Virus record (IMG/VR): IMGVR_UViG_3300032323_000409
Coordinates: 1 to 34,638 of that record
Length of the DNA stretch: 34,638 nt
Direction: 5' to 3' (one strand)
Source of the DNA: a virus
Shown here: positions 9,412 through 29,829 of the stretch, in pieces
Layout of the letters: every line of letters starts with the position of its first letter
How positions within the stretch are numbered: position 1 is the stretch's first letter
Notes under the pieces: generated by a model
Told to the model about the DNA's origin: nothing
What the model saw: the letters and a program-made list of their open reading frames with translations, nothing else
The model's database searches: none
Translations under genes and position numbers: made by a program

Positions 9412-9509
9412 TTGAAACCATAATGATTGTGTTTGCTATAGGATTTTTTGCTATATTCGCAACCCTAATGATATTGGCAGCAATGCTCTTGTATTGGACT
9501 AACTTATGA
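9408..9509 (+). CDS. 33-aa single-TM peptide
   Basis: The frame runs from ATG 9408 to TGA 9507-9509. The product is almost entirely hydrophobic (MIETIMIVFAIGFFAIFATL...MLLYWTNL), one TM helix with a Trp/Tyr boundary at its C-terminal end. It is stitched to both neighbours by ATGA overlaps (9408-9411 and 9506-9509), leaving no other explanation for this stretch. Together with the secreted protein before it, it may form a small envelope-directed unit. Confidence 0.65.
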   Translation: MIETIMIVFAIGFFAIFATLMILAAMLLYWTNL

Positions 9510-10144
9510 CATTTCTAGTAGCCAACATACCCCCAGTTAAGTGCTTTGTGCGTAAAGAGTACCTTTACAATCATGAAAAAGGACACGGTGAACTAGAGCC
9601 TTGCATATGGATGACCGCTAAAGCCATTAAAGGCCAAGCCTTTCGCATAGAATCCATGCTGACTAATTACGGTGCTTTGTACGACAAACTGCCAATTAGT
9701 GCTTATGTATGGAAAGAAGTTACCGAACCGTTGCCCTTGGATTATTTGCAGATATGGGATTGCCTTTCATACGACATGGCGGTAATTGAAAAGTCGAACT
9801 TGCGTGGTCTAAAGGTCAAATACTTTGGTAAGGATAAGCAGTTTCACTTTGGCAACTACTTGTTTACAGTCGATTTTGCCAGCCCCGATGCAAATCGCTT
9901 AGATACTAGCTTTAGCGAGGGGGTTCAAGAGCATAAGTCGTATAACTTTATTAAGTTGGATAATGGTCAATTTGCTTGCCAACCGAACAATCGTTGCCTT
10001 TGGTACGATGTATCGCTTGTGCCTGCTGTATTAAAAAACCCTGATTTTAAAATACCCACAGAAGTTTACAGCGTAGAAAACCATGCTAAATGGAGCGCTA
10101 AAGACGAATGGTTCTACAACTTTGACGAAATTAAACATGACTGA
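9506..10144 (+). CDS. Conserved phage protein of unknown function, 212 aa
   Basis: The sequence starts MTFLVANIPPVKCFVRKEYL and includes YNHEKGHGELEPCIWMTAKA, NYGALYDKLPISAYVW, LQIWDCLSYD and DNGQFACQPNNRCLWYDVSL. I recognise this aromatic-rich, mixed alpha/beta pattern as a family repeated in phages of aquatic bacteria, always without assigned function. There is no TM segment or nucleotide-binding motif. It is coupled by ATGA to the 33-aa peptide and overlaps the zinc-ribbon gene by 8 nt. It is expressed early, within the DNA-metabolism operon. Confidence 0.78.
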   Translation: MTFLVANIPPVKCFVRKEYLYNHEKGHGELEPCIWMTAKAIKGQAFRIESMLTNYGALYDKLPISAYVWKEVTEPLPLDYLQIWDCLSYDMAVIEKSNLRGLKVKYFGKDKQFHFGNYLFTVDFASPDANRLDTSFSEGVQEHKSYNFIKLDNGQFACQPNNRCLWYDVSLVPAVLKNPDFKIPTEVYSVENHAKWSAKDEWFYNFDEIKHD

Positions 10145-15167: not shown

Positions 15168-15452
15168 ATGGATGAAAAACAATCTAAATCTATCAAGGGT
15201 GGGAAAAGACCTGGCGCAGGGCGTAAGGCTGGCGTACCCAATAAAATCACAGGTGATGTCAAGGCCGCCATTGCTGCGTTTACTTCTGCCAATGTGGACA
15301 AGCTAGATGAATGGCTTAATTCGATTGATGACCCAGCCAAGCGCTTAGACCTTTACTTTAAGGCCTTGGAGTATAGTATGCCAAAACTGGCTAGGACTGA
15401 GCTGTCAGGCGATAAAGAGAACCCCATTATTGTTCAAACTGTAAACTTTTGA
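15168..15452 (+). CDS. Terminase small subunit (candidate)
   Basis: The product is 94 aa. SIKGGKRPGAGRKAGVPNKI (about residues 8-27) is the basic, Gly-rich start often seen in small DNA-packaging proteins and terminase small subunits, followed by a helical region (TGDVKAAIAAFTSANVDKLD) and a C-terminal strand. It is directly upstream of, and overlaps by 4 nt, the large terminase gene. It should recognise phage DNA and hand it to the large subunit. It is shorter than typical small terminases, so the assignment rests partly on position. Confidence 0.75.
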   Translation: MDEKQSKSIKGGKRPGAGRKAGVPNKITGDVKAAIAAFTSANVDKLDEWLNSIDDPAKRLDLYFKALEYSMPKLARTELSGDKENPIIVQTVNF

Positions 15453-16864
15453 CCACTATTCGCCTACCTAATAACTGGAAGCCTAGAGACTACCAGCTTG
15501 CAGCCTGGCGCTATATGCAAACAGGCGGTAAACATTGTGAAATTGTCTGGCATCGAAGAAGCGGTAAGGATGAGCTAGGCCTGCATTGGACTGCAGTTGC
15601 AGCATTTAAAAGGGTAGCTCAGTACTGGTATATGCTGCCTGAGTACTCACAAGCTCGCAAAGCTATTTGGGATGCAATTAACCCTCATACAGGGCGAAAG
15701 CGCATAGATGAAGCCTTCCCCCTGGAGCTGAGGGAAACCACTCGTAATGACGAGATGAAGATTATTTTTAAGAATGGTTCATCTTTCCAGGCTGTAGGCT
15801 CAGATGACCCCTCTAAGCTTGTTGGTTCGCCTCCTGCAGGCATTGTCTATTCTGAGTGGGCGCTGAGTAACCCAGCAACTAGGGCTTATTTAAGGCCGAT
15901 TCTGATGGAAAACGGGGGATGGCAGATATTCAACACCACACCCAGAGGCCGAAACCATGCTTACACCACATTGGAGGCAGCTAAGCGAAACCCAGACGCA
16001 TTTGCCCAGGTCTTAGACGCTACGCAAACAGGCATATTCACACCTGAGCAGCTAGAGGCAGAGCTTCAAAACTATATTGCTGACTTTGGCGAGGACTTCG
16101 GGCGCTCTAAGTTCGAGCAAGAGTACTTATGCTCATTTGATGCCGCAAATTTAGGGGCAATACTGGCAAGGCAGCTTACATTATCTGAAAGAGCAGGTAG
16201 GATTAGTGATGATGTTCAGTTTGACCCAGAAGGACAACCAATCCAGATTAGCGTAGACATTGGGCGCAGAGATACGGCTACATGGTGGTTCTGGCAGCCG
16301 GTCATTGGTGGTTATAACATCGTGGACTATGACTCAGGCTTTGGCATAGATGCAGAGGAATGGGCGCATAGAATCCACAAAAAGCTCTGCAAGTACGAAC
16401 TAAGCGGCAAACGCAATCCATTAGGCTGTATATGGCTGCCCCATGATGCAAGGACTAAGACTTTCTCAGCCAAAGAGTCAGCAATAGAAATATTCCTTAA
16501 ATTTTTTGGGCATAATAAATGCGACATAACCCCATCGACATCCATTGCAGACAGGATAAACGCTGCCAGGGTGGTGTTGCCTAGGGTGCAATTCAACAAA
16601 ACTAATTGCAAAATAGGACTAGATGGCCTTAGAGCCTGGAGCTACGCATATAACGACATTACCAAGACATTCGGTTCTAGTCCATTGCACGATTGGGCTT
16701 CCCATGATGGAGACGGTTTTTCTTATGGTTGCCAGATTATGCAGATGGCCTCACCGTTACCGCCTCCGATTGAGGAAATGAAGGGTATTAAAGTGGGACA
16801 AACTGAGGTATCGCTTAACGACCTTTGGAAAGAAACTAAGACAAAAGTGAACCAAAGGTACTAA
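15449..16864 (+). CDS. Terminase large subunit (packaging ATPase and nuclease)
   Basis: The product is 471 aa with a TTG start at 15449 overlapping the small-subunit stop (TTGA). The next in-frame ATG would cut the conserved PRDYQLAAWRYM segment, so TTG is favoured. A Walker A-like HRRSGKDE is at residues 35-42, Walker B GIVYSEW at 131-137 with Glu136, and a motif III region IFNTTPRGRNH lies near 161. The nuclease half has SVDIGRRD (Asp270), IWLPHDARTK and a late acidic DWASHDGDGFSYG. It cuts concatemers and pumps DNA through the portal. Confidence 0.93.
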   Translation: MTTIRLPNNWKPRDYQLAAWRYMQTGGKHCEIVWHRRSGKDELGLHWTAVAAFKRVAQYWYMLPEYSQARKAIWDAINPHTGRKRIDEAFPLELRETTRNDEMKIIFKNGSSFQAVGSDDPSKLVGSPPAGIVYSEWALSNPATRAYLRPILMENGGWQIFNTTPRGRNHAYTTLEAAKRNPDAFAQVLDATQTGIFTPEQLEAELQNYIADFGEDFGRSKFEQEYLCSFDAANLGAILARQLTLSERAGRISDDVQFDPEGQPIQISVDIGRRDTATWWFWQPVIGGYNIVDYDSGFGIDAEEWAHRIHKKLCKYELSGKRNPLGCIWLPHDARTKTFSAKESAIEIFLKFFGHNKCDITPSTSIADRINAARVVLPRVQFNKTNCKIGLDGLRAWSYAYNDITKTFGSSPLHDWASHDGDGFSYGCQIMQMASPLPPPIEEMKGIKVGQTEVSLNDLWKETKTKVNQRY

Positions 16865-16919: not shown

Positions 16920-19187
16920 ATGGCAAACGATACAGCAACGGTAGACCACACATACGAAGATTGGTACAAGACAATTATGTCTTACGAGCGCCAGTACAAG
17001 CGCTGGGAGGCTAGAGCAGACCGAATCGTTAAGAAGTATAAAGACGATAGCCGTTATGACCGTAACCCTAATGCTCGGTTTAATATCCTTTGGTCAAATG
17101 TCCAAACCATTCAGCCAGCCATCTTTGCAAGACTGCCTCGCCCCGATGTAAGCCGAAGATTTAGGGACAATGACCCTATAGGTCGTGTTGCGTCAATGAT
17201 GCTGGAGCGAGCCTTAGAGTTTGAGATTGAGCATTACGGTGATTACAAGTCCGCTATGAACAACTCAGTACTAGACCGTCTTTTAGGTGGTCGTGGTGTT
17301 TCATGGGTGCGGTACGAGCCACATTTTGCAGTCGATGAAGTAGGCGAACCCGATGATGGCTTCCAAGTTACCGAAGATTCAGACGAATCCGAGACACCTG
17401 AAGGCATGGAGAATGAGAACCCTGAGCGTATTGAGTACGAGTGCGCTCCTGTAGATTATGTTCATTGGAAGGAATTTGGACATACCCCTGGAGCTAGGAC
17501 ATGGGAGGAAGTAACTTGCGTATGGCGTAAGGTCTATATGTCTCGCCCTGCACTCGTTGAGCGTTTTGGTGAGGAATTAGGCTACAAAATACCGCTAGAC
17601 ACCAAGCCAGCAGACGATAAAAACTCGTATAAACCTGTAGACGGTGTATATGAAGCGGTAATTTATGAAATTTGGGACAAGGAAACGGGTAAAGTCCTGT
17701 GGATTTCCAAGTCTTTAGGAAAGATTATTGACGAGCGTGATGACCCATTGCAGCTTGAGAACTTTTTTCCCTGCCCTAAACCCCTGTATTCCACACTCAC
17801 AACGGATTCACTAGAGCCAATTCCTGATTTTGTCATTTACCAAGACCAAGCAAGGGAATTAGATACTTTATGTGACCGAATTGACGGGTTAATTAACGCA
17901 TTAAAGGTGCGTGGCGTATACGATGCCTCGGCTAGTGAACTACAACGACTGTTTACAGAAGGCGAAAACAACACTCTGATACCTGTAGACAACTGGATGG
18001 CTTTTGCTGAAAAGCAAGGCATGAAGGGAGCGATTGATTTAGTAGACATTACCCCATTCGCACAAGCTTTAGCCCAATGTTATCAAGCAATGGAGCAAGT
18101 TAAGGGGCAAATCTACGAATTGATGGGTATTGCCGACATTCAACGGGGACAAACTGACCCTAATGAGACCCTTGGCGCACAGATTATTAAGTCAAACAAC
18201 GCATCGGGTCGTTTAAAAACCATGCAACACGCTGTAGTCGATTTTGCTACTAGCATTTTGTCGATTAAAGCGCAAATTATCTGCAATCACTTTACCGATG
18301 AGACATTAATTCAGATTTCGGGTGCAATGCAATTATCTGAGCAAGATAAACAGCTTATCCCCCAAGCCATTGCCCTGTTAAGAGACGAAGCCTCTAAAAA
18401 CTTCCGCATTGAAGTCACTTCTGACTCAATGATTTACCAAGATGAACAGCAGGAAAAAGCAGACAGAGTAGCGTTTTTAAGTGCCGTTGGCTCATTTTTA
18501 CAGACAGCGCTTCCAACTGCACAAGCCGCACCTGAATTAACCCCAATGCTGTTGGAAATGATGAAGTTTGGCGTTACTGCATTTAAAGCCGGTAAACAGC
18601 TAGAGGGAATCATTGACCAAACTGCTGACGATATGCGTAAAGCTTACGAACAGAGAAAAGGCCAACCACAACAGCCTCCTGTAGAACTGCAAAAGGTTCA
18701 AATGGAACAACAAGCCAAACAACAGCAAATGCAGATGCAAGCTCAATTAGAGCAATTAAAAATGCAAAATGCTATGCAGATTGAAAAAGCCAAGCAAGAG
18801 TACCAGGCTCAAGAGAATCAACTCAAATTCCAACTTGAAGAACAACGCAACACAATGGACAGAGAGATGGAGATGAAAGTAGCTCAAATGAAGATGATGA
18901 CTGAGCGAAACACTCAAGTCCTACTAGCCCATATCAACAATGGCGCTAAGATTGAAGTTGCCCGTATTGGTTCGGATGACTCTGACGGTGCAGCAGCTTA
19001 CGCTAATGAGCAAGAAATGGCTCAAGCTATGGCTCACCCAATGCAACCGATTGCCGATGCTATTGGTCGTGGAAATCAAGAAATGGCTATTGCAATCAGT
19101 AACTTAGCTCAAACACTTAGCGAACAAAACAATAGGCCAAGACAAGTAGTTCGTGGCGCTGACGGTAAAATCATCGGAGTTCAATAA
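16920..19187 (+). CDS. Portal protein
   Basis: The product is 755 aa, like portals of P22-type podoviruses. YERQYKRWEARADRIVKKY and RFNILWSNVQTIQPAIFARL at the start, WVRYEPHF, EFFxH-like VHWKEFGHTPGARTWEEV and LMGIADIQRGQTDPNETLGA further on are typical of this portal family. From about residue 577 to 675 the protein becomes Gln/Met-rich coiled coil, which could form the barrel or a P22-like helical extension. It forms the dodecameric DNA gate at one capsid vertex. It starts 55 nt after the terminase gene and its stop overlaps the fibre start (TAATG). Confidence 0.9.
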   Translation: MANDTATVDHTYEDWYKTIMSYERQYKRWEARADRIVKKYKDDSRYDRNPNARFNILWSNVQTIQPAIFARLPRPDVSRRFRDNDPIGRVASMMLERALEFEIEHYGDYKSAMNNSVLDRLLGGRGVSWVRYEPHFAVDEVGEPDDGFQVTEDSDESETPEGMENENPERIEYECAPVDYVHWKEFGHTPGARTWEEVTCVWRKVYMSRPALVERFGEELGYKIPLDTKPADDKNSYKPVDGVYEAVIYEIWDKETGKVLWISKSLGKIIDERDDPLQLENFFPCPKPLYSTLTTDSLEPIPDFVIYQDQARELDTLCDRIDGLINALKVRGVYDASASELQRLFTEGENNTLIPVDNWMAFAEKQGMKGAIDLVDITPFAQALAQCYQAMEQVKGQIYELMGIADIQRGQTDPNETLGAQIIKSNNASGRLKTMQHAVVDFATSILSIKAQIICNHFTDETLIQISGAMQLSEQDKQLIPQAIALLRDEASKNFRIEVTSDSMIYQDEQQEKADRVAFLSAVGSFLQTALPTAQAAPELTPMLLEMMKFGVTAFKAGKQLEGIIDQTADDMRKAYEQRKGQPQQPPVELQKVQMEQQAKQQQMQMQAQLEQLKMQNAMQIEKAKQEYQAQENQLKFQLEEQRNTMDREMEMKVAQMKMMTERNTQVLLAHINNGAKIEVARIGSDDSDGAAAYANEQEMAQAMAHPMQPIADAIGRGNQEMAIAISNLAQTLSEQNNRPRQVVRGADGKIIGVQ

Positions 19188-21691
19188 TGGCTATTACAGT
19201 CAAACATAGTAAGGTTTCGCTAATACCTGACGGTGATGACACATCCGTAGTCAGGCCAAGTGACTGGAACGCTGACCATACTCTAGTCGGTCTAGGCACG
19301 ATGGCAGAGCAAAATGCCAATTCCGTAGCCATTACGGGCGGTACGATTTCAGGCGTTACTATTCCTGCATCTAACATTACGGGTACGCTTGGAGTCCCTA
19401 ATGGCGGCACAGGTGCATCTACTTTGACAGGCTATGTCAAGGGTACTGGCACAACGCCAATGACTGCTAGTGCAACCATTCCGAACACGGATATTACGGG
19501 TTTAGGTACGGCTTCTACCAAGGATGCAGGTTCACCCAACGGTGTAGCTACCCTCGATGCTGGCGGTAAAGTACCTGTTTCTGAACTTCCAGCCGCAGTA
19601 TTGGGCGCACTTAGTTACCAAGGCACATGGGATGCAAGCACTAATACACCTACCCTTACTTCTTCTGTTGGTACTAAAGGTTATTACTATGTGGTCAGCG
19701 TTGCTGGTAATACTAACCTTAACGGGATTACTGATTGGCTTGTGGGCGATTGGGCAGTATATAACGGCACAGTTTGGCAAAAGGTTGACAATACCGAAAC
19801 GGTAACATCCGTCAACGGTCAGACTGGTGCAGTCGTATTAACCACGACAAATATTACCGAAGGTACAAACGAATACTTTACCCAAGCTAGGGCTAGAACT
19901 TCCATAAGTGCTGGCACAGGCATAAGTTATGACAACACGACTGGCGTAATTACAAACGCTGCACCTGACCAAACCGTTAGCATTACTGGGGCTGGTACAA
20001 CAACAGTTACGGGTACTTATCCTAACTTTACCATTACATCCGATGACCAGTTTGACGGTACGGTAACTAGCGTAGGCCTTACAAGTTCTGCCGCATCATT
20101 AGCCATTACCAATAGTCCGATTACTTCTAGCGGCAATATTGGCGTTAATTTTGCAGGATTATCAAACCAATATGTCAGGGGTGATGGTGCTTTAGCCAAC
20201 TTCCCAACCACGCAAGGCGGTGGTTCTTCCGTATCGTATTACCTAAACGGTAGCGTAAACCAAGGCACTTTTGGTGGTAATACTTACTACGAAATGAGCA
20301 AAACCCCTATATTTGGGACTGGTACTAACTTTAGTGTTAGTGCTGATGGATACATTGCCCAATTCATTACGGATGCTGGTGACCCTGCGTTATTGTCAAT
20401 TCCTGCTGGTAATTGGAACTTTGAGTTATTTTTTAGTGCTTCTTCAGGCGGTGGTTCGCCTAGCTTTTATATAGAACTTTACAAGTACGATGGCACGACC
20501 TTTACTTTAATTGCCAGCGATTCAGGCAGTCCTGAAGGAATAACCAACGGTACTAATAAAGATTTATATTTTTCAGCCATAGCTGTACCGCAAACAGCTT
20601 TAACTTTAACTGACCGTTTAGCAATTCGAGTTTATGTAACTACAAGCGGTAGAACCATTACCTTACATACTGAAGATAACAATCTTTGCCAAATAATTAC
20701 CACTTTTTCTACTGGAATCAATGCTTTAAATGGCCTAACCGCACAAGTTCAATACTTTGCCGTAGGCACTTCAGGCACAGATTTCAATATTGCAAGTGCA
20801 ACTGATACCCATACATTTAACCTGCCATCGGCATCGGCTACAAATCGTGGCGCATTACTATCTGCTGACTGGACAACCTTTAACAACAAGGTAACAAGCG
20901 TTAGCGGAACAAGCGGCAGAATTACCAGTAGCGGTGGCACAACCCCAGCCATTGACCTTGCAAGCGGTATTGCAACAGCAGGGACTACGGGTTCTAGCAC
21001 CTTAATTCCTGTAATAACCGTTGATACTTATGGTCGAGTAACTTCCGTAACCACAGCCGAAAACCCACAAGGTACAGTCACAAGCGTAAGTGGTACAGGT
21101 ACGGTCAATGGCATTAGCCTTTCAGGAACAGTCACTTCTAGCGGTAGCTTAACCCTTGGCGGCACATTATCCAATGTAAGTCTAAGCACCCAAGTAACGG
21201 GAACTTTGCCTATTGCCAATGGGGGTACAGGGGAAACAACCCGTCAAGCTGCTATGGATGCGCTTGCAGGTGCAGTAACTAGCGGTCAATACCTACGGGG
21301 TAACGGTACGGATGTGGTTATGTCGGCTATTCAGGCTGCAGATGTACCAACCTTGAACCAAAACACCACAGGCACAGCCGCCAATGTAACGGGTACGGTA
21401 GCCGTAGCTAACGGTGGTACAGGACTTACTAGCCTTACAGCTAATAGAGTTCCTTACGGTGCTGGCACAAGTGCCTTGGGTAATGAAGCTGAATTTACCT
21501 ATGACCCTAGCTTAAACACGCTTACCGCCCCGCAAATCAACGCTTCAAACGGCATAGTCGTAAACAGCAATACGGTATCGGCAAACTATACGATTCCTAG
21601 CGGTTCTAGTGCTAGTTCAGTAGGGCCAATGACCGTATCAAGTGGTGTAGTCGTAACAGTTTCTAGTGGGTCACGCTGGGTCGTTCTGTAA
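19187..21691 (+). CDS. Large tail fibre / adhesin protein, 834 aa
   Basis: The sequence is Thr/Ser/Gly-rich beta structure. The start MAITVKHSKVSLIPDGDDTS and WNADHTL is a common fibre N-terminus. NGGTG repeats occur near residues 71, 675 and 738, and GTVTSV-type repeats at several places. Residues about 355-520 form a distinct jelly-roll-like domain. The last ~45 residues share a pattern (SVGP..V.SG..VT..S..RWV.L) with the 191-aa fibre at 33907. It is placed between portal and scaffold genes, far from the other fibres, which is unusual. Likely receptor binding or virion surface adhesin. Confidence 0.82.
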   Translation: MAITVKHSKVSLIPDGDDTSVVRPSDWNADHTLVGLGTMAEQNANSVAITGGTISGVTIPASNITGTLGVPNGGTGASTLTGYVKGTGTTPMTASATIPNTDITGLGTASTKDAGSPNGVATLDAGGKVPVSELPAAVLGALSYQGTWDASTNTPTLTSSVGTKGYYYVVSVAGNTNLNGITDWLVGDWAVYNGTVWQKVDNTETVTSVNGQTGAVVLTTTNITEGTNEYFTQARARTSISAGTGISYDNTTGVITNAAPDQTVSITGAGTTTVTGTYPNFTITSDDQFDGTVTSVGLTSSAASLAITNSPITSSGNIGVNFAGLSNQYVRGDGALANFPTTQGGGSSVSYYLNGSVNQGTFGGNTYYEMSKTPIFGTGTNFSVSADGYIAQFITDAGDPALLSIPAGNWNFELFFSASSGGGSPSFYIELYKYDGTTFTLIASDSGSPEGITNGTNKDLYFSAIAVPQTALTLTDRLAIRVYVTTSGRTITLHTEDNNLCQIITTFSTGINALNGLTAQVQYFAVGTSGTDFNIASATDTHTFNLPSASATNRGALLSADWTTFNNKVTSVSGTSGRITSSGGTTPAIDLASGIATAGTTGSSTLIPVITVDTYGRVTSVTTAENPQGTVTSVSGTGTVNGISLSGTVTSSGSLTLGGTLSNVSLSTQVTGTLPIANGGTGETTRQAAMDALAGAVTSGQYLRGNGTDVVMSAIQAADVPTLNQNTTGTAANVTGTVAVANGGTGLTSLTANRVPYGAGTSALGNEAEFTYDPSLNTLTAPQINASNGIVVNSNTVSANYTIPSGSSASSVGPMTVSSGVVVTVSSGSRWVVL

Positions 21692-22158
21692 TGTTTTCAA
21701 CCGCTTTTCAGGCTAATGCGTTTCAAAACGATGCGTTTCAAATCGTTATTACCCCGATTGAACCTACAATTCGGGGTGGCGATGGTTGGACAAAAGAAGA
21801 ATGGAAACGAGCGCAAGCATTAGATAAGAAGTTGCGCCAGGCTGAAGAAAAGCGGATGGCTGCCTTAAAAGCAGACCAAGAAGCTCGCAGGGACTTTATT
21901 CGTGAACAAATTAGTCCTGCACCAAAAGTCAGTAAACGCAAACAAGTTATTGTAGAATCCGTAAGCGAAGAAAAGCAGTCAGAAGTAATTAAATATGATG
22001 CCCTGATAGCTAATTTGGAGCGCCAAAGACAAGATTTATCAAATGCAGTATTAATTCGTCAAGCTAAAGAGCGTTTAGAGCAAGAAATTGCAATACTAGA
22101 AGCTAAACGGCTTGCTGAAGAAGATGATGAGGATGGGATTTTAGCGTTGTTTTTATAA
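21691..22158 (+). CDS. Phage coiled-coil protein following the fibre, 155 aa
   Basis: The start MFSTAFQANAFQNDAFQIVI contains a short AFQ repeat often seen in small phage structural-region proteins. After residue 35 comes a long charged helix (KEEWKRAQALDKKLRQAEEK onward) with a second coiled coil at 105-145, and an acidic hydrophobic end EEDDEDGILALFL. It starts in a TAATG overlap with the fibre. It may assist fibre or head assembly; this is inferred from position. Confidence 0.7.
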   Translation: MFSTAFQANAFQNDAFQIVITPIEPTIRGGDGWTKEEWKRAQALDKKLRQAEEKRMAALKADQEARRDFIREQISPAPKVSKRKQVIVESVSEEKQSEVIKYDALIANLERQRQDLSNAVLIRQAKERLEQEIAILEAKRLAEEDDEDGILALFL

Positions 22159-22185: not shown

Positions 22186-23079
22186 ATGACAGCATATAGA
22201 AGTTACAAAAAAGGTGTAGATTTACTACACATGGGCCATTTCCAAGCAGGATTTCGGCTATTTGAGTTCCGTTGGCATCCAGAAGTGATGCAAGCCACAG
22301 GCGAACAATGGCAAAAATGGGTAAAAGCACCTAAATGGGATGGTGAAAGACTGATTGGTAAGCATATTGTTGTTCAAATGGAACAGGGGTATGGCGATAT
22401 TATCCAATTTGCTCGTTTTTTACCTATGCTTAAAGCCTGGGGAGCTAAAACACTCTCCGTTATGTGCCATGAATCCATGATGCAGTTACTTGGTACGATG
22501 GATTGCATAGATTACATCTCCTGCAATAAGGCAGAAGGCCCACAAATGGAAGCAGATTACTGGATTGGGTCTATGTCCCTACCCCATTTCGCCACTTATG
22601 CACCCCCTTTTGTCAAACAATCCTACCCTATAACTACCCAAAAGATTGTTGGTTCTGAGGGTTATTTTGAGGCTAGACCATCCAATATTGAGCGCAAAGT
22701 AGGGGTAAATTGGTCTGCATCTAATGGCCCATTGCATTACACCAAGTCAATTCCTCTAGAAACCATGCGACAACTAGTTGGAGACGATGTTTATTCGCTC
22801 CATATAGAGTTAGACGATGTGTTTGACCCATTGCCGAATGATGGTTGGAAACGCAACTTTTACAAGACTGCTTGTCACATGAAAGCCATGAAAGCCGTAG
22901 TAGCGCCTGATACTGCAACCGCACATTTAGCCGGTGCTTTGGGTGTAAAGTGCTTTTTATTGCTTCCAGACCATGACTATATCTGTTGGCGTTGGAAAAA
23001 CGCAACATGGTATGACTCAGTAGTACCTTTAAAGAAAGAAGAATGGCATTTATTACCCTCATTATTGGAGAAACTATGA
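22186..23079 (+). CDS. TPR-linked glycosyltransferase (GT-B, OGT/heptosyltransferase-like)
   Basis: The product is 297 aa. A single TPR-like repeat at residues 5-30 (YKKGVDLLHMGHFQAGFRLF, EFRWHP) is followed by a GT-B fold: HIVVQMEQGYGDIIQFARFL (about 59-78) and near the end VVAPDTATAHLAGALGVKCF, LLLPDHDYICWRW. These are hallmarks of bacterial TPR/O-linked GlcNAc transferase-like and family 9-like enzymes. It probably transfers a sugar to a virion protein or host glycan. AAAGGAG lies 22 nt before the ATG, with a small AGGC/GCCT hairpin between; an in-frame stop rules out an earlier start. Confidence 0.82.
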   Translation: MTAYRSYKKGVDLLHMGHFQAGFRLFEFRWHPEVMQATGEQWQKWVKAPKWDGERLIGKHIVVQMEQGYGDIIQFARFLPMLKAWGAKTLSVMCHESMMQLLGTMDCIDYISCNKAEGPQMEADYWIGSMSLPHFATYAPPFVKQSYPITTQKIVGSEGYFEARPSNIERKVGVNWSASNGPLHYTKSIPLETMRQLVGDDVYSLHIELDDVFDPLPNDGWKRNFYKTACHMKAMKAVVAPDTATAHLAGALGVKCFLLLPDHDYICWRWKNATWYDSVVPLKKEEWHLLPSLLEKL

Positions 23080-23450
23080 TTTGCCCTAAATGTGGACACA
23101 CCGATAATCCTGAAATTAGCGTTAAATCCGACAAAGACTACTATTTAGAGTTTTGGGGATATACCCTTGGAAGCCCCGAAGCAGAAGAAGCCTGGAGAGA
23201 AAAACAGGAAATGACTCGCAAAGAAGCCCCTATGGTTATGTCGGATATTCAACCCTACATTTCGCAAGTAGACGGTTCACTAATTGAAAGCCGGTCTAAA
23301 CACAAAGCACACCTAAAACAACACAGAATGATTGAGTTAGGCAACGATGTACCATTGCAGCACAAACCACCTGAGTTAAGCAGAAAGTCTATGGAAGCTA
23401 GGAAGCGCCAAATAGCCGAATTGACCTATGCAAAACTTAATTACCGATAA
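23076..23450 (+). CDS. Zinc-ribbon phage protein upstream of scaffold, 124 aa
   Basis: ATG 23076 (GGAG 7 nt upstream, ATGA overlap) is preferred to upstream in-frame starts. MICPKCGHTDNPEI gives one CxxC near the N-terminus; no second CxxC is visible, so a zinc site would need a dimer or be degenerate. The body includes APMVMSDIQPYISQVDGSLI and ESRSKHKAHLKQHRMIELGN, a pattern seen in conserved phage proteins located ahead of scaffold genes. It may be a head-assembly factor; role unproven. Confidence 0.72.
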   Translation: MICPKCGHTDNPEISVKSDKDYYLEFWGYTLGSPEAEEAWREKQEMTRKEAPMVMSDIQPYISQVDGSLIESRSKHKAHLKQHRMIELGNDVPLQHKPPELSRKSMEARKRQIAELTYAKLNYR

Positions 23451-23470: not shown

Positions 23471-24517
23471 ATGTCAGAAGAACAGTTAGACCGTAGAGAA
23501 TTACTAATGCAAGCTATGGAAGCTGCAGAAGAAGGCGAATTAGAACCTGTAAAGGAAGCACCTGCTGAACTAGAACCTGTAGACGATATTGCTGAAGAAG
23601 CCAAATTAGAGACTACGGAAGAACCTATTGAAGTTGCCCAAGAGGAAGAAACAGAGGAAGAAACGGAAGAAATCGTTGAAGAACCTGTTTTACAGCGCCC
23701 TACGACATGGAAAAAAGAGTATTTGCCTATTTGGGATAAGCTAACTAAAGGCGAACAACTAACTAAAGAAGAAGGCAGAAAACTAGCTGAATATACGGGA
23801 TTCCAAAGAGAAACCGAATTTAAGCGTGGAGTGTCTACTTACAAAGCTGAAGCTGACCGAGCAAAAGAACTAGAAAACGCTATTGCTCCATTCCAAGCAG
23901 AGTTTCAGCAACAAGGAATTAGCCCTGCAGCTTGGATTAATAACCTTGGTCGAGCGCACATGATTTTGTCAAAAGCGCCTTATGACCAAAAAGTTCAATT
24001 ATTTCACCGACTTGCACAAGATTATGGTATACAATTAAATCAAGACGGTAATTCTGTTCCACAAGTTGATGCGTACACACAACAACTTATGAACCAGTTG
24101 AACCAAGTGAATCAAGAGGTTTCTACTATTAAAGGTAGATTCCAGCAGGAAGAACAAGCAAGACTCAGCAATGAAATCGAGCGAGTTCGGAGTGATGTGG
24201 AGAGGTTTCCGCATTTTGATGTGGTAAGGGAAGAAATGGCTCAACTACTTGAGCTAGGGAAAGCCCAAGACCTAGAAACGGCTTACAAGAAAGCTGTGCG
24301 TATGAATGATGATGTATGGGCATTAGAACAGGAACGACTCCTGAAGGATGCCAAACAACAGGCAATCAAAGCGCAGCAAGTACAGAAAGCTAAGGCGGCT
24401 GCAGTAAGTCCAAAGTCCGTTACACCTAGCGGAAAAGTGACAGAAACAGGCGATAAAAAGGATAGGCGGTCTTTATTGTCAGAGCAATTAGGCGAGGCAA
24501 TGAGCCGTAGGGTTTAA
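23471..24517 (+). CDS. Scaffolding protein
   Basis: The product is 348 aa. Residues about 1-75 are extremely acidic (runs of Glu, Pro, Val), 90-130 carry FQRETEFKRGVSTYKAEADR, then long helices (DAYTQQLMNQLNQVNQEVST). The C-terminus is basic (KKDRRSLLSEQLGEAMSRRV), as expected for the coat-binding end of a scaffold. Placement directly before the major capsid gene strengthens the call. It would guide procapsid assembly and then leave the head. GGAGATACC precedes the ATG. Confidence 0.85.
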   Translation: MSEEQLDRRELLMQAMEAAEEGELEPVKEAPAELEPVDDIAEEAKLETTEEPIEVAQEEETEEETEEIVEEPVLQRPTTWKKEYLPIWDKLTKGEQLTKEEGRKLAEYTGFQRETEFKRGVSTYKAEADRAKELENAIAPFQAEFQQQGISPAAWINNLGRAHMILSKAPYDQKVQLFHRLAQDYGIQLNQDGNSVPQVDAYTQQLMNQLNQVNQEVSTIKGRFQQEEQARLSNEIERVRSDVERFPHFDVVREEMAQLLELGKAQDLETAYKKAVRMNDDVWALEQERLLKDAKQQAIKAQQVQKAKAAAVSPKSVTPSGKVTETGDKKDRRSLLSEQLGEAMSRRV

Positions 24518-24555: not shown

Positions 24556-25542
24556 ATGACTTTTGCTAACTCAGCAATCACCGATATTATCGCTACCACT
24601 ATTCAAAGTCGTAGCGGTGAACTCGCAGACAACTTAACAGAAAACAACGCAATTCTTACTCGTTTGAACCAGAAGGGCAATGTTCGCCCATTCTCAGGTG
24701 GTAATGTGATTTTGGAAGAAATCATGTACAACGACCCCAACACCAACAACGCTAACTCGTATAGCGGATATGAAGTTCTGAACATTTCTCCTGACAGCCC
24801 AATTTCTGCTGCTCAGTACAAAATTGCTCAGTACGCTGATTCCGTAACGATGTCCGGCCTTGAAATGTTGCAAAACAGCTCTAAAGAAGCAATCATCGAC
24901 CTGTTAGATGGTCGTATGCAAGTTTCTGAAGCTCGTTTGCTAAACCGCATTTCGGGTGACTTGTTCGGAAACGGTACTGGTAACGGTGGTAAGAATCTTG
25001 ACGGTCTAGGCGCTGCTGTTTCAGCAACTCCAACCCTCGGTACTTACGGTGGTATTAATGCCGCTAACTGGGACTTCTGGCGCAACCAGATTACTACTGG
25101 CGTAACCACAACTCCTGCTACAACCAACATTCTTGCCAAGATGACTGAAGCTGCTATCAAGCAGATTCGTGGTACTGACAAGGCTGACCTGATTGTTGCT
25201 GGTAACACAATGTATCAACTCTATGTGAACAGCTTGCAAGCTATCCAGCGTATCGCTTCTGAGGAATCTGGCGCTGCTGGTTTTGCATCGCTCAAGTTCT
25301 ACGGTGGCGGTACATCTGCTGATGTGGTGCTTGGTGGTGGTTATGGCAATCAACAGACAGCTACCTATATGTATATGCTCAACACCAACTACATTTTCTT
25401 CCGCCCTCACAAAGAGCGTAACTTTGTACCTATCGGTGGCGAGCGTCAAGCGATTAACCAAGACGCAATCGTTAAGCTGTATGGTTGGGCTGGTAACTTG
25501 ACAACTTCTAACCGCTTCTTGCAAGGTTTGTTGACAACCTAA
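24556..25542 (+). CDS. Major capsid protein
   Basis: The product is 328 aa. It begins MTFANSAITDIIATTIQSRS and has NVRPFSGGNVILEEIMYNDP, SAAQYKIAQYADSVTMSGLE (an alpha/beta segment like the HK97 P-domain) and NISPDSPISAA. It ends AIVKLYGWAGNLTTSNRFLQ plus a few residues. The length, the position after a scaffold and the strong ribosome site (AAGGATATATC) fit the shell protein of a short-tailed phage. An HK97-like fold is inferred, not shown. Likely the most abundant product; its codon use looks smoother than its neighbours'. Confidence 0.88.
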   Translation: MTFANSAITDIIATTIQSRSGELADNLTENNAILTRLNQKGNVRPFSGGNVILEEIMYNDPNTNNANSYSGYEVLNISPDSPISAAQYKIAQYADSVTMSGLEMLQNSSKEAIIDLLDGRMQVSEARLLNRISGDLFGNGTGNGGKNLDGLGAAVSATPTLGTYGGINAANWDFWRNQITTGVTTTPATTNILAKMTEAAIKQIRGTDKADLIVAGNTMYQLYVNSLQAIQRIASEESGAAGFASLKFYGGGTSADVVLGGGYGNQQTATYMYMLNTNYIFFRPHKERNFVPIGGERQAINQDAIVKLYGWAGNLTTSNRFLQGLLTT

Positions 25543-25600: not shown

Positions 25601-25897
25601 ATGGCATATTCAACACTTCCCATCGCTGGCATTGATTTGAACAGCACACAATCTGCAGCAGAAATTGCAGCTTACGGTGAACCAGTAGACTTTGGCCCAC
25701 TCGGCACACAAACTTTCGCTTCTGACGGTTTGCGTTATGTTTGGGCTGTAGCAGCAGCTACTATCGCTCCAAGCACGACTGCTTGCAACATCAACACATC
25801 AACCTTTACTGTTGCTGCTTCTGGTGGAGCTTATATCTCCCCAGCAGTTTCAATGGTAGCTGGTGATTATGGTTGGTTTGGTAAAGCATCTGTTTAA
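25601..25897 (+). CDS. Head decoration / minor capsid protein candidate, 98 aa
   Basis: It begins MAYSTLPIAGIDLNSTQSAA and is Ala/Thr/Ser-rich with beta character (TQTFASDGLRYVWAVAAATI, SPAVSMVAGDYGWFGKASV). Small beta-rich proteins encoded right after the capsid gene are often decoration proteins stabilising the shell. AAGGAAATAATC gives a strong ribosome site. A good terminator follows, so capsid and this gene could be expressed at similar high levels. Confidence 0.7.
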   Translation: MAYSTLPIAGIDLNSTQSAAEIAAYGEPVDFGPLGTQTFASDGLRYVWAVAAATIAPSTTACNINTSTFTVAASGGAYISPAVSMVAGDYGWFGKASV

Positions 25898-25917
25898 GCT
25901 GTACCTGTAGTACTATA

Positions 25918-25953
25918 GGGCTGTCCCCAAAAGGGGCAGTCCTTTTTCTTTTT
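25918..25953 (+). terminator. Intrinsic terminator after the capsid module
   Basis: GGGCTGTCCCC (25918-25928) pairs with GGGGCAGTCC (25933-25942) around AAAA, with one bulged U and one G-U pair, followed by TTTTTCTTTTT. It likely reduces read-through into the downstream connector genes. Confidence 0.88.
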
Positions 25954-29385: not shown

Positions 29386-29829
29386 TTGAGGCAAGTAACT
29401 ACTGAAAATCAACAGTACATGGGGGATTGGCTAGTCAGAATGATGAACCACCCTTTGCCAATAGAAACAGTATGTATAGGGCAGGAAATAGATGGTAATT
29501 TAGTAGCAGTAGTAGGGTTTGCTAGTTTTATGCCAAAAGCGTGTCAAATGCACATTGCGGCAGTAGACGAAGTAAATTGGATGAGTAGAGATTTATTGTG
29601 GGCGGCTTTCGATTATCCCTTTAATAAACTAGGTGTTAGCGTTATACTAGGGCAAGTTTGTGCAGATAATGAATCTGCCCTAAAACTAAACCGACACCTT
29701 GGTTTTAAAGTAATAGCCGAAATCCCTGATGCTCACATGGATGGTGATTTAGTGATTATGGCTATGAGGCGTGAAGATTGTCGTTGGCTCGACATTAAAT
29801 GCCCTTTAAGAACAGCAAGAGGAGAATGA
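29386..29829 (+). CDS. GNAT-like virion-region protein, 147 aa
   Basis: TTG at 29386 is the likely start: GGAGGTG lies 8 nt upstream and the frame follows directly on a stop, whereas the ATG at 29419 has no ribosome site. VGFASFMPKACQMHIAAVDE, LLWAAFDYPFNKLGVSVILG and NESALKLNRHLGFKVIAEIP form the core of a GNAT acyltransferase fold, including the NxxAxxLxxxxGF segment. Similar proteins lie near internal virion genes in T7-like phages (gp13). It may be structural rather than enzymatic. Confidence 0.78.
   Translation: MRQVTTENQQYMGDWLVRMMNHPLPIETVCIGQEIDGNLVAVVGFASFMPKACQMHIAAVDEVNWMSRDLLWAAFDYPFNKLGVSVILGQVCADNESALKLNRHLGFKVIAEIPDAHMDGDLVIMAMRREDCRWLDIKCPLRTARGE

Follow-up and report, generated by a model that had tools for sequence, protein, structure and literature searches.

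The window, a 34,638-base viral contig whose positions supply all coordinates below unless another locus is named, carries a 297-aa GT9-like glycosyltransferase (GT; 22186 to 23079) in a head gene cluster of the Mx8 type, and the variation of this enzyme among relatives follows that of a 98-aa head structural protein encoded at 25601 to 25897. On the evidence of their sequences, GT and 98-aa types change together across a mosaic backbone. We consider it reasonably probable that this phage GT acts as a protein O-glycosyltransferase and that the 98-aa protein, of a capsid decoration type, is its paired acceptor. A sequence-only reading of the locus had proposed that the enzyme glycosylates a virion protein, possibly the Ser/Thr-rich fibre two genes upstream; the covariation with a head protein supports the proposal in kind, and the reading was most likely right about the class of target and wrong about the acceptor that it named.

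The features of this region lie on the plus strand in the following order: the terminase large subunit (TerL, 15449 to 16864; phrog_2, E 1.9e-23, and Pfam Terminase_6N), a portal protein (16920 to 19187; phrog_12082, E 4e-176, with Mx8-type relatives), a hypervariable 834-aa Ser/Thr/Gly-rich fibre (19187 to 21691; PHROG 13892/31460 tail matches, E ~1e-21), a 155-aa coiled-coil protein directly 5′ of the GT (cc155, 21691 to 22158), the GT, a p46-like small protein with a zinc-ribbon-like N terminus (23076 to 23450; syntenic in relatives), a scaffold-like protein (23471 to 24517; assigned by position and by homology to the Mx8 p47 region), the major capsid protein (MCP, 24556 to 25542; phrog_9953, E 2.8e-96, and 50% identity with the major head protein of Mx8), and the 98-aa protein. 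The GT thus sits between fibre/coiled-coil genes and scaffold and capsid genes, as had been proposed. The p46 ATG overlaps the GT stop codon as ATGA (sequence 23041 to 23090), and the strongest terminator-like site, a hairpin plus T-run identified by consensus match only (25917 to 25943; 11-bp stem, TTTTCTTTTT tail), lies directly 3′ of the 98-aa gene and is likely the end of a GT-to-decoration transcription unit. The overlap and the terminator-like site support, as far as sequence can, the suggestion that the GT is expressed late, together with the head genes.

Homology of TerL, portal, and capsid places the window with the Mx8-type phages, and its portal (phrog_12082) and capsid (phrog_9953) genes, with p46 and scaffold between them, make up the Mx8-type head module. 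The window shares the order and homology of TerL, portal, p46, scaffold, and capsid with Myxococcus phages Mx8 and Mx9 and with BUCT555 and ppBjS10J-1. In all four, and in RHph_I3_18, small genes, scaffold, and capsid follow the portal and there is no GT; the fibre-cc155-GT segment between portal and p46 is a feature of the window that Mx8, Mx9, BUCT555, and ppBjS10J-1 lack.

Several other features of these genomes emerged from the comparison. In relatives, the stretch from portal to cc155 forms a hypervariable fibre locus, with 1 to 7 ORFs over ~1.6 to 6 kb, and in most cases it opens with a fibre-like N terminus. The terminase large subunit occurs in at least two alleles in the clade (window; L010, L020, L021, and L024; 86 to 90% versus 28 to 33% identity) on otherwise similar head genes, which amounts to terminase swapping. 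A GNAT-like acyltransferase gene in the tail/virion region (29386 to 29829; phrog_4470) occupies the same place in Mx8-type phages and is possibly another virion-protein modifier. In the early/middle region, 9506 to 10144 is an auxiliary gene with a phrog_3704 "ferredoxin" assignment (E 9e-85).

The GT ORF is open from an ATG at 22186 to a TGA at 23079. Most relatives have a stop just ahead of the ATG, by one or a few codons, which fixes the start. The ORF is not a chance one, since >100 homologues (49 to 95% identity) occupy the same genomic place and dN/dS against close relatives is 0.04 to 0.09; these ratios argue for strong purifying selection. The Pfam GT9 family (PF01075, Glyco_transf_9) scored below its gathering threshold on the window protein (13.5 bits versus 22; E 0.044); it matched 27 of 31 relatives at E ≤0.1, with a best value of 2.9e-4. 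An AlphaFold2 model of moderate confidence (pLDDT 67) gave 27 matches at E ≤0.001 in a PDB fold search, all of the GT9 or TibC/WaaC/WaaF type, the best being 3tov, TibC, and WaaC (E 2e-6 to 1e-4). The modeled enzyme thus appears to have a GT-B fold closest to those of heptosyltransferases. Its N-terminal part, which is of low confidence, shows helices (residues 3 to 14 and 26 to 38) and no β-barrel.

A profile of the phage GT family recovers, mostly at E 1e-19 or lower, the GT domains of TPR-GT proteins from bacteria and phages, and HMM alignment shows a homologous GT domain with the invariant residues in shared columns. Judged by sequence similarity, the nearest relatives of the window GT are TPR-GTs and not lipopolysaccharide (LPS) enzymes. 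Sequence searches of the PDB with the GT or GT profiles gave no match, and the genome-contig search with the phage GT profile found no relatives; only the TPR-GT profile reached bacteria. The motifs E66-Q-G-x-G-D71, S188, D242-T-x-x-A-H247, W268-R-W270, and W275-Y276 show no or almost no variation across relatives from phages and bacteria. The motifs had been described as intact, and the family alignment bears this out; a search of the same alignment for loss of catalytic residues in relatives, an outcome named beforehand as counting against the proposed virion glycosylation, found none. By analogy to WaaC D13 and to TibC D110, D71 is the putative catalytic base. The TibC residue is described in PMC4358343.

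The label "TPR-type" held in one respect and failed in another: the GT belongs to the TPR-GTs by descent, but the Pfam scan detected neither a TPR match nor an N-terminal TPR array in the window protein. What it has is one degenerate hairpin at about residues 5 to 30, a remnant of the array present in relatives such as the L177, L178, and L185 proteins. Other arrangements of the domain were also seen. In cyanophage BUCT-ZZ01 (L083, 5851 to 7566), the GT domain is joined to a C-terminal region that, judged by eye, resembles a methyltransferase; the gene for this fusion comes immediately after one for a BNR-repeat protein and has a tail fibre gene nearby. Bacterial ORFs of ~2000 to 3700 aa (L250, L317, L292, and L261; for example, in Telmatospirillum and Geobacteraceae) contain several tandem TPR-GT units.

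We surveyed relatives through the capsid gene, without conditioning on the GT; among the matches listed, the GT was present in every close relative with a covered portal-p46 interval. Over four capsid scans, each giving the best 80 of >500 capsid-matched contigs, it was present in 131 of 135 loci with cc155 and in none of 73 complete loci without a recognizable cc155; its late, head-coupled position was kept in all GT-positive loci. It is cleanly absent from seven loci within the clade (L366, L444, L449, L447, L477, L409, and L413), where cc155 runs directly into p46; the 32.7-kb contig L447 has no GT elsewhere on the contig. Five GT-less loci could be placed on a backbone tree, and they represent five independent loss events. 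The 98-aa protein occurs in all GT-positive loci (112 detected by profile and 2 seen in the ORF list). Its family also occurs without the GT in at least 15 loci, so the protein does not depend on a sugar everywhere.

The family phrog_26298, made up of structural proteins of the virion head, matches the 98-aa protein at E 0.0018 and the homologues of this protein in L089 and L090 at 1.3e-4 and 2.6e-12. The AlphaFold2 model of the 98-aa protein, of high confidence, is a small β-rich protein (pLDDT 88.9); in the PDB fold search nothing fell below E 0.7, and the weak matches include the HFTV1, lambda gpD, and phi29 gp8.5 head proteins. A role in capsid decoration is suggested by the position of the gene after the capsid gene and by the weak PHROG match.

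Covariation singled this protein out. Distances for portal, cc155, scaffold, and capsid correlate at 0.77 to 0.90 among themselves, but those for the GT reach only 0.38 to 0.53 with them. In a first backbone-corrected comparison the 98-aa gene was the best GT partner (r 0.72, partial 0.62), and in 129 nonredundant loci the values were 0.72 and, after correction against cc155, scaffold, MCP, and p46, 0.63; partial covariation of the GT with each of those four was ≤0.20. We then extended the scan to the 30 window genes for which a test was possible, using up to 30 genomes (29 entire contigs and the window itself): the 98-aa gene was by far the best partner (r 0.76, partial 0.68), and the next best gene reached 0.44, in 13 genomes. 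The signal resides in the C-terminal half of the 98-aa protein (residues 50 to 98; partial 0.70, versus 0.29 for residues 1 to 49), and on the GT side it is strongest in the N-terminal 50 residues, the TPR-like part (0.70). Two candidates were rejected: recombination linkage as the cause of the covariation, because the intervening genes do not share it, and cc155 as the acceptor, since it always adjoins the GT yet has a partial r of ~0. The covariation could also be explained by contact without catalysis.

When GT and C-terminal-half sequences were each sorted into three clusters, the resulting table was block-diagonal (80 / 40+8 / 1). On a backbone tree built from scaffold, capsid, and cc155, the GT type changes 8 times and the C-half type 7 times, with the same change in 5 to 6 of 7 independent pairs and never the opposite one; the significance given by partial Mantel tests is inflated when sequences are related, and the tree-based sign test gives only p 0.03. 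The type of p46, used as a control, does not follow GT type. Individual genomes illustrate the exchange. The window and L017 share 89% DNA identity in the GT and 88% in the 98-aa gene, versus 71% in cc155, 67% in p46, 69% in scaffold, and 78% in MCP; L017 and its backbone sister L081, in turn, share 82% in scaffold and 86% in capsid, but 67% in the GT and 66% in the 98-aa gene. At the protein level, the pattern recurs when L048/L051/L056 are compared with L065 to L074 and among the GT types found on the backbone of the window. A second Mx8-like clade (L177, L178, and L327 to L329) encodes a full TPR-GT of ~470 aa downstream of the capsid gene, directly 3′ of a ~192-aa gene; the N-terminal part of the ~192-aa product is a homologue of the 98-aa protein, with HMM E values from 2.5e-8 to 2.5e-4. 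The recurrence of the same pair in a different placement argues for a functional link.

Within the C-terminal half, Ser67 is a first candidate for the acceptor site on the basis of residue conservation. A Ser or Thr occupies this position in 149 of 149 distinct variants from GT-positive loci and also in 15 of 18 from GT-negative loci; it is kept in 131 of 131 GT-positive loci versus 2 of 5 independent GT losses, the other three having Ala, a suggestive pattern that falls short of significance. Among the other positions considered, Ser87 is Ala in the window protein, Ser97 is invariant with and without the GT, and Arg45 and residue 52, like residue 67, vary where the GT was lost.

If the acceptor were instead the 834-aa fibre, the enzyme would act much as TibC does on Ser-rich β-solenoid passengers. 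The fibre is rich in Ser, Thr, and Gly and lies upstream of the GT in this clade, and glycosylation of Ser in autotransporters by TibC provides a precedent (PMC4358343). However, its partial r with the GT was −0.07 in the genome-wide scan (30 genomes) and 0.12 in 56 loci, it is hypervariable between loci with nearly identical GTs, and GT alleles track the 98-aa protein. A survey of relatives for co-occurrence of enzyme and fibre, proposed earlier as a check, found no covariation, and L366, L444, and the sister loci L204 and L232 keep both fibre and cc155 although they cleanly lack the GT. We therefore regard the fibre as an improbable target. It is unlikely, too, that the GT modifies another virion protein (MCP, cc155, scaffold, or p46) and that the 98-aa protein covaries by packing against the modified surface. 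Such a target would fit a gene that lies in the head operon, adjoins cc155, and overlaps p46, and glycosylation of capsid and tail-tube proteins is known from mycobacteriophages, to go by the accounts in PMC12619734 and PMC11256854; against it stand the low partial values of all four proteins and the second clade, where the GT is beside the 98-aa homologue and not beside MCP, cc155, scaffold, or p46.

If the GT instead modified a glycan of the host, LPS or capsule, whether to prevent superinfection or to aid release, its place in the head operon would be incidental. The fold relatives do include the LPS heptosyltransferases WaaC and WaaF, but a host-glycan role leaves the constant head-coupled position and the coupling of alleles with a head protein unexpected, and it fits poorly with TPR-GTs as the nearest sequence relatives. 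Furthermore, the window ORFs scanned contain no flippase, bactoprenol-sugar, or serotype-conversion gene, hence no gtrABC-like serotype-conversion module (flippase, bactoprenol glucosyltransferase); we rate this role as low in probability as the fibre. Very unlikely, in our estimation, is co-exchange of the GT and the 98-aa gene through shared host-range or serotype selection without either acting on the other. The genomes are mosaic and exchange alleles often, including those of terminase and early genes, but host selection should also act on the fibre-like genes and the distal virion genes, and those starting at 19187, 29831, 31207, and 32394 show GT covariation of ~0; the coupling maps to one half of the 98-aa protein, and the two genes are adjacent in an independent clade.

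Glycosylation of the 98-aa protein, the reading we prefer, has partial parallels in known systems. FlmG of Caulobacter, which combines TPRs with a GT-B domain, glycosylates flagellins and binds them via its TPRs (PMC7591256). Compared by layout, both enzymes have a GT-B domain of ~290 aa, soluble and cytoplasmic, with TPR sequence ahead of it; FlmG itself acts on a self-assembling surface protein, with the TPR part binding the acceptor, and bacterial TPR-GTs of the window's family also adjoin flagellin genes, in 7 fetched loci. Unlike FlmG, the window GT is phage-encoded, has lost nearly all TPRs, and has a capsid protein as its predicted acceptor. TibC has a GT9-like fold and heptosylates Ser of autotransporters (PMC4358343), a direct transfer of sugar onto Ser of a β-rich protein that resembles the activity predicted here. 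TibC and bacterial autotransporter heptosyltransferases (PDB 4rap and 4rb4) are among the best fold matches of the GT, at ~9% identity in the structural match; an N-terminal β-barrel, an iron finger, and a dodecamer are features of TibC, and the window GT has 297 aa. With the GT9 LPS heptosyltransferases WaaC and WaaF, the GT shares its fold and GxGD and DTxxxH-type motifs, but it falls below the Pfam GT9 cutoff and its predicted acceptor is protein, not LPS. A phage precedent is found in mycobacteriophages, whose GTs glycosylate capsid and tail-tube subunits (Freeman et al. 2023, as cited in PMC12619734 and PMC11256854). In those accounts the glycans are on capsid and tail-tube C termini, whereas the window has a predicted separate, small, decoration-type acceptor; it also differs in having a GT9-like TPR-GT and, by the genomic evidence, a jointly exchanged partner.

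We propose that the GT, a member of the GT9-like TPR-GT family, is produced late, as part of the transcription unit of the head genes, and works in the cytoplasm as a soluble protein O-glycosyltransferase. There it would draw on a host nucleotide-sugar as donor and modify Ser/Thr residues within the C-terminal half (residues 50 to 98) of the 98-aa protein, either ahead of capsid assembly or while it proceeds, with the N-terminal TPR remnant of the GT probably aiding acceptor recognition. The 98-aa protein would then be assembled onto the capsid, giving it a glycan coat. Enzyme and acceptor would evolve, and be exchanged between phages, as a matched pair despite three intervening genes. A distant TPR-GT in marine virus AG-345-E08 (L082, 29174 to 31662 and 19461 to 20768) has other sugar-related genes in its vicinity: ~9 kb away are homologues of dTDP-glucose 4,6-dehydratase, HldE-type adenylyltransferase, and HldE-type kinase, all below NCBI cutoffs, and a sulfotransferase is nearby. 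This is possibly a virion- or surface-modification cluster; the HldE-like homologues are at best a hint of a heptose-type donor.

Phage virion glycosylation is documented in few systems. Phage-encoded glycosylation of virions is already known from mycobacteriophages, and set against the accounts of that work cited above, what is new here is the enzyme family, the predicted acceptor, and the paired exchange; our literature search found no paper on the GT/98-aa pair, which is not proof of absence. We give about an even chance to the broader proposal that a capsid "glyco-type" module of two genes exists in Mx8-like tailed phages, one gene for a GT9-like protein GT and one for a dedicated decoration-protein acceptor. 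The two genes, which lie apart in one clade and side by side in the other, would be swapped between phages as matched pairs and so alter the sugar coat of the capsid. Natural variation names the predicted acceptor protein, the half, and the candidate site ahead of experiment, and relatives supply matched and mismatched enzyme-acceptor pairs, with natural GT losses as controls. If the pairing is true, capsid glycosylation would be widespread in this environmental phage group, acceptor recognition by TPR-GTs could be studied in detail with a substrate of 98 aa, and covariation across mosaic phage genomes would offer a way of finding enzyme-substrate pairs.
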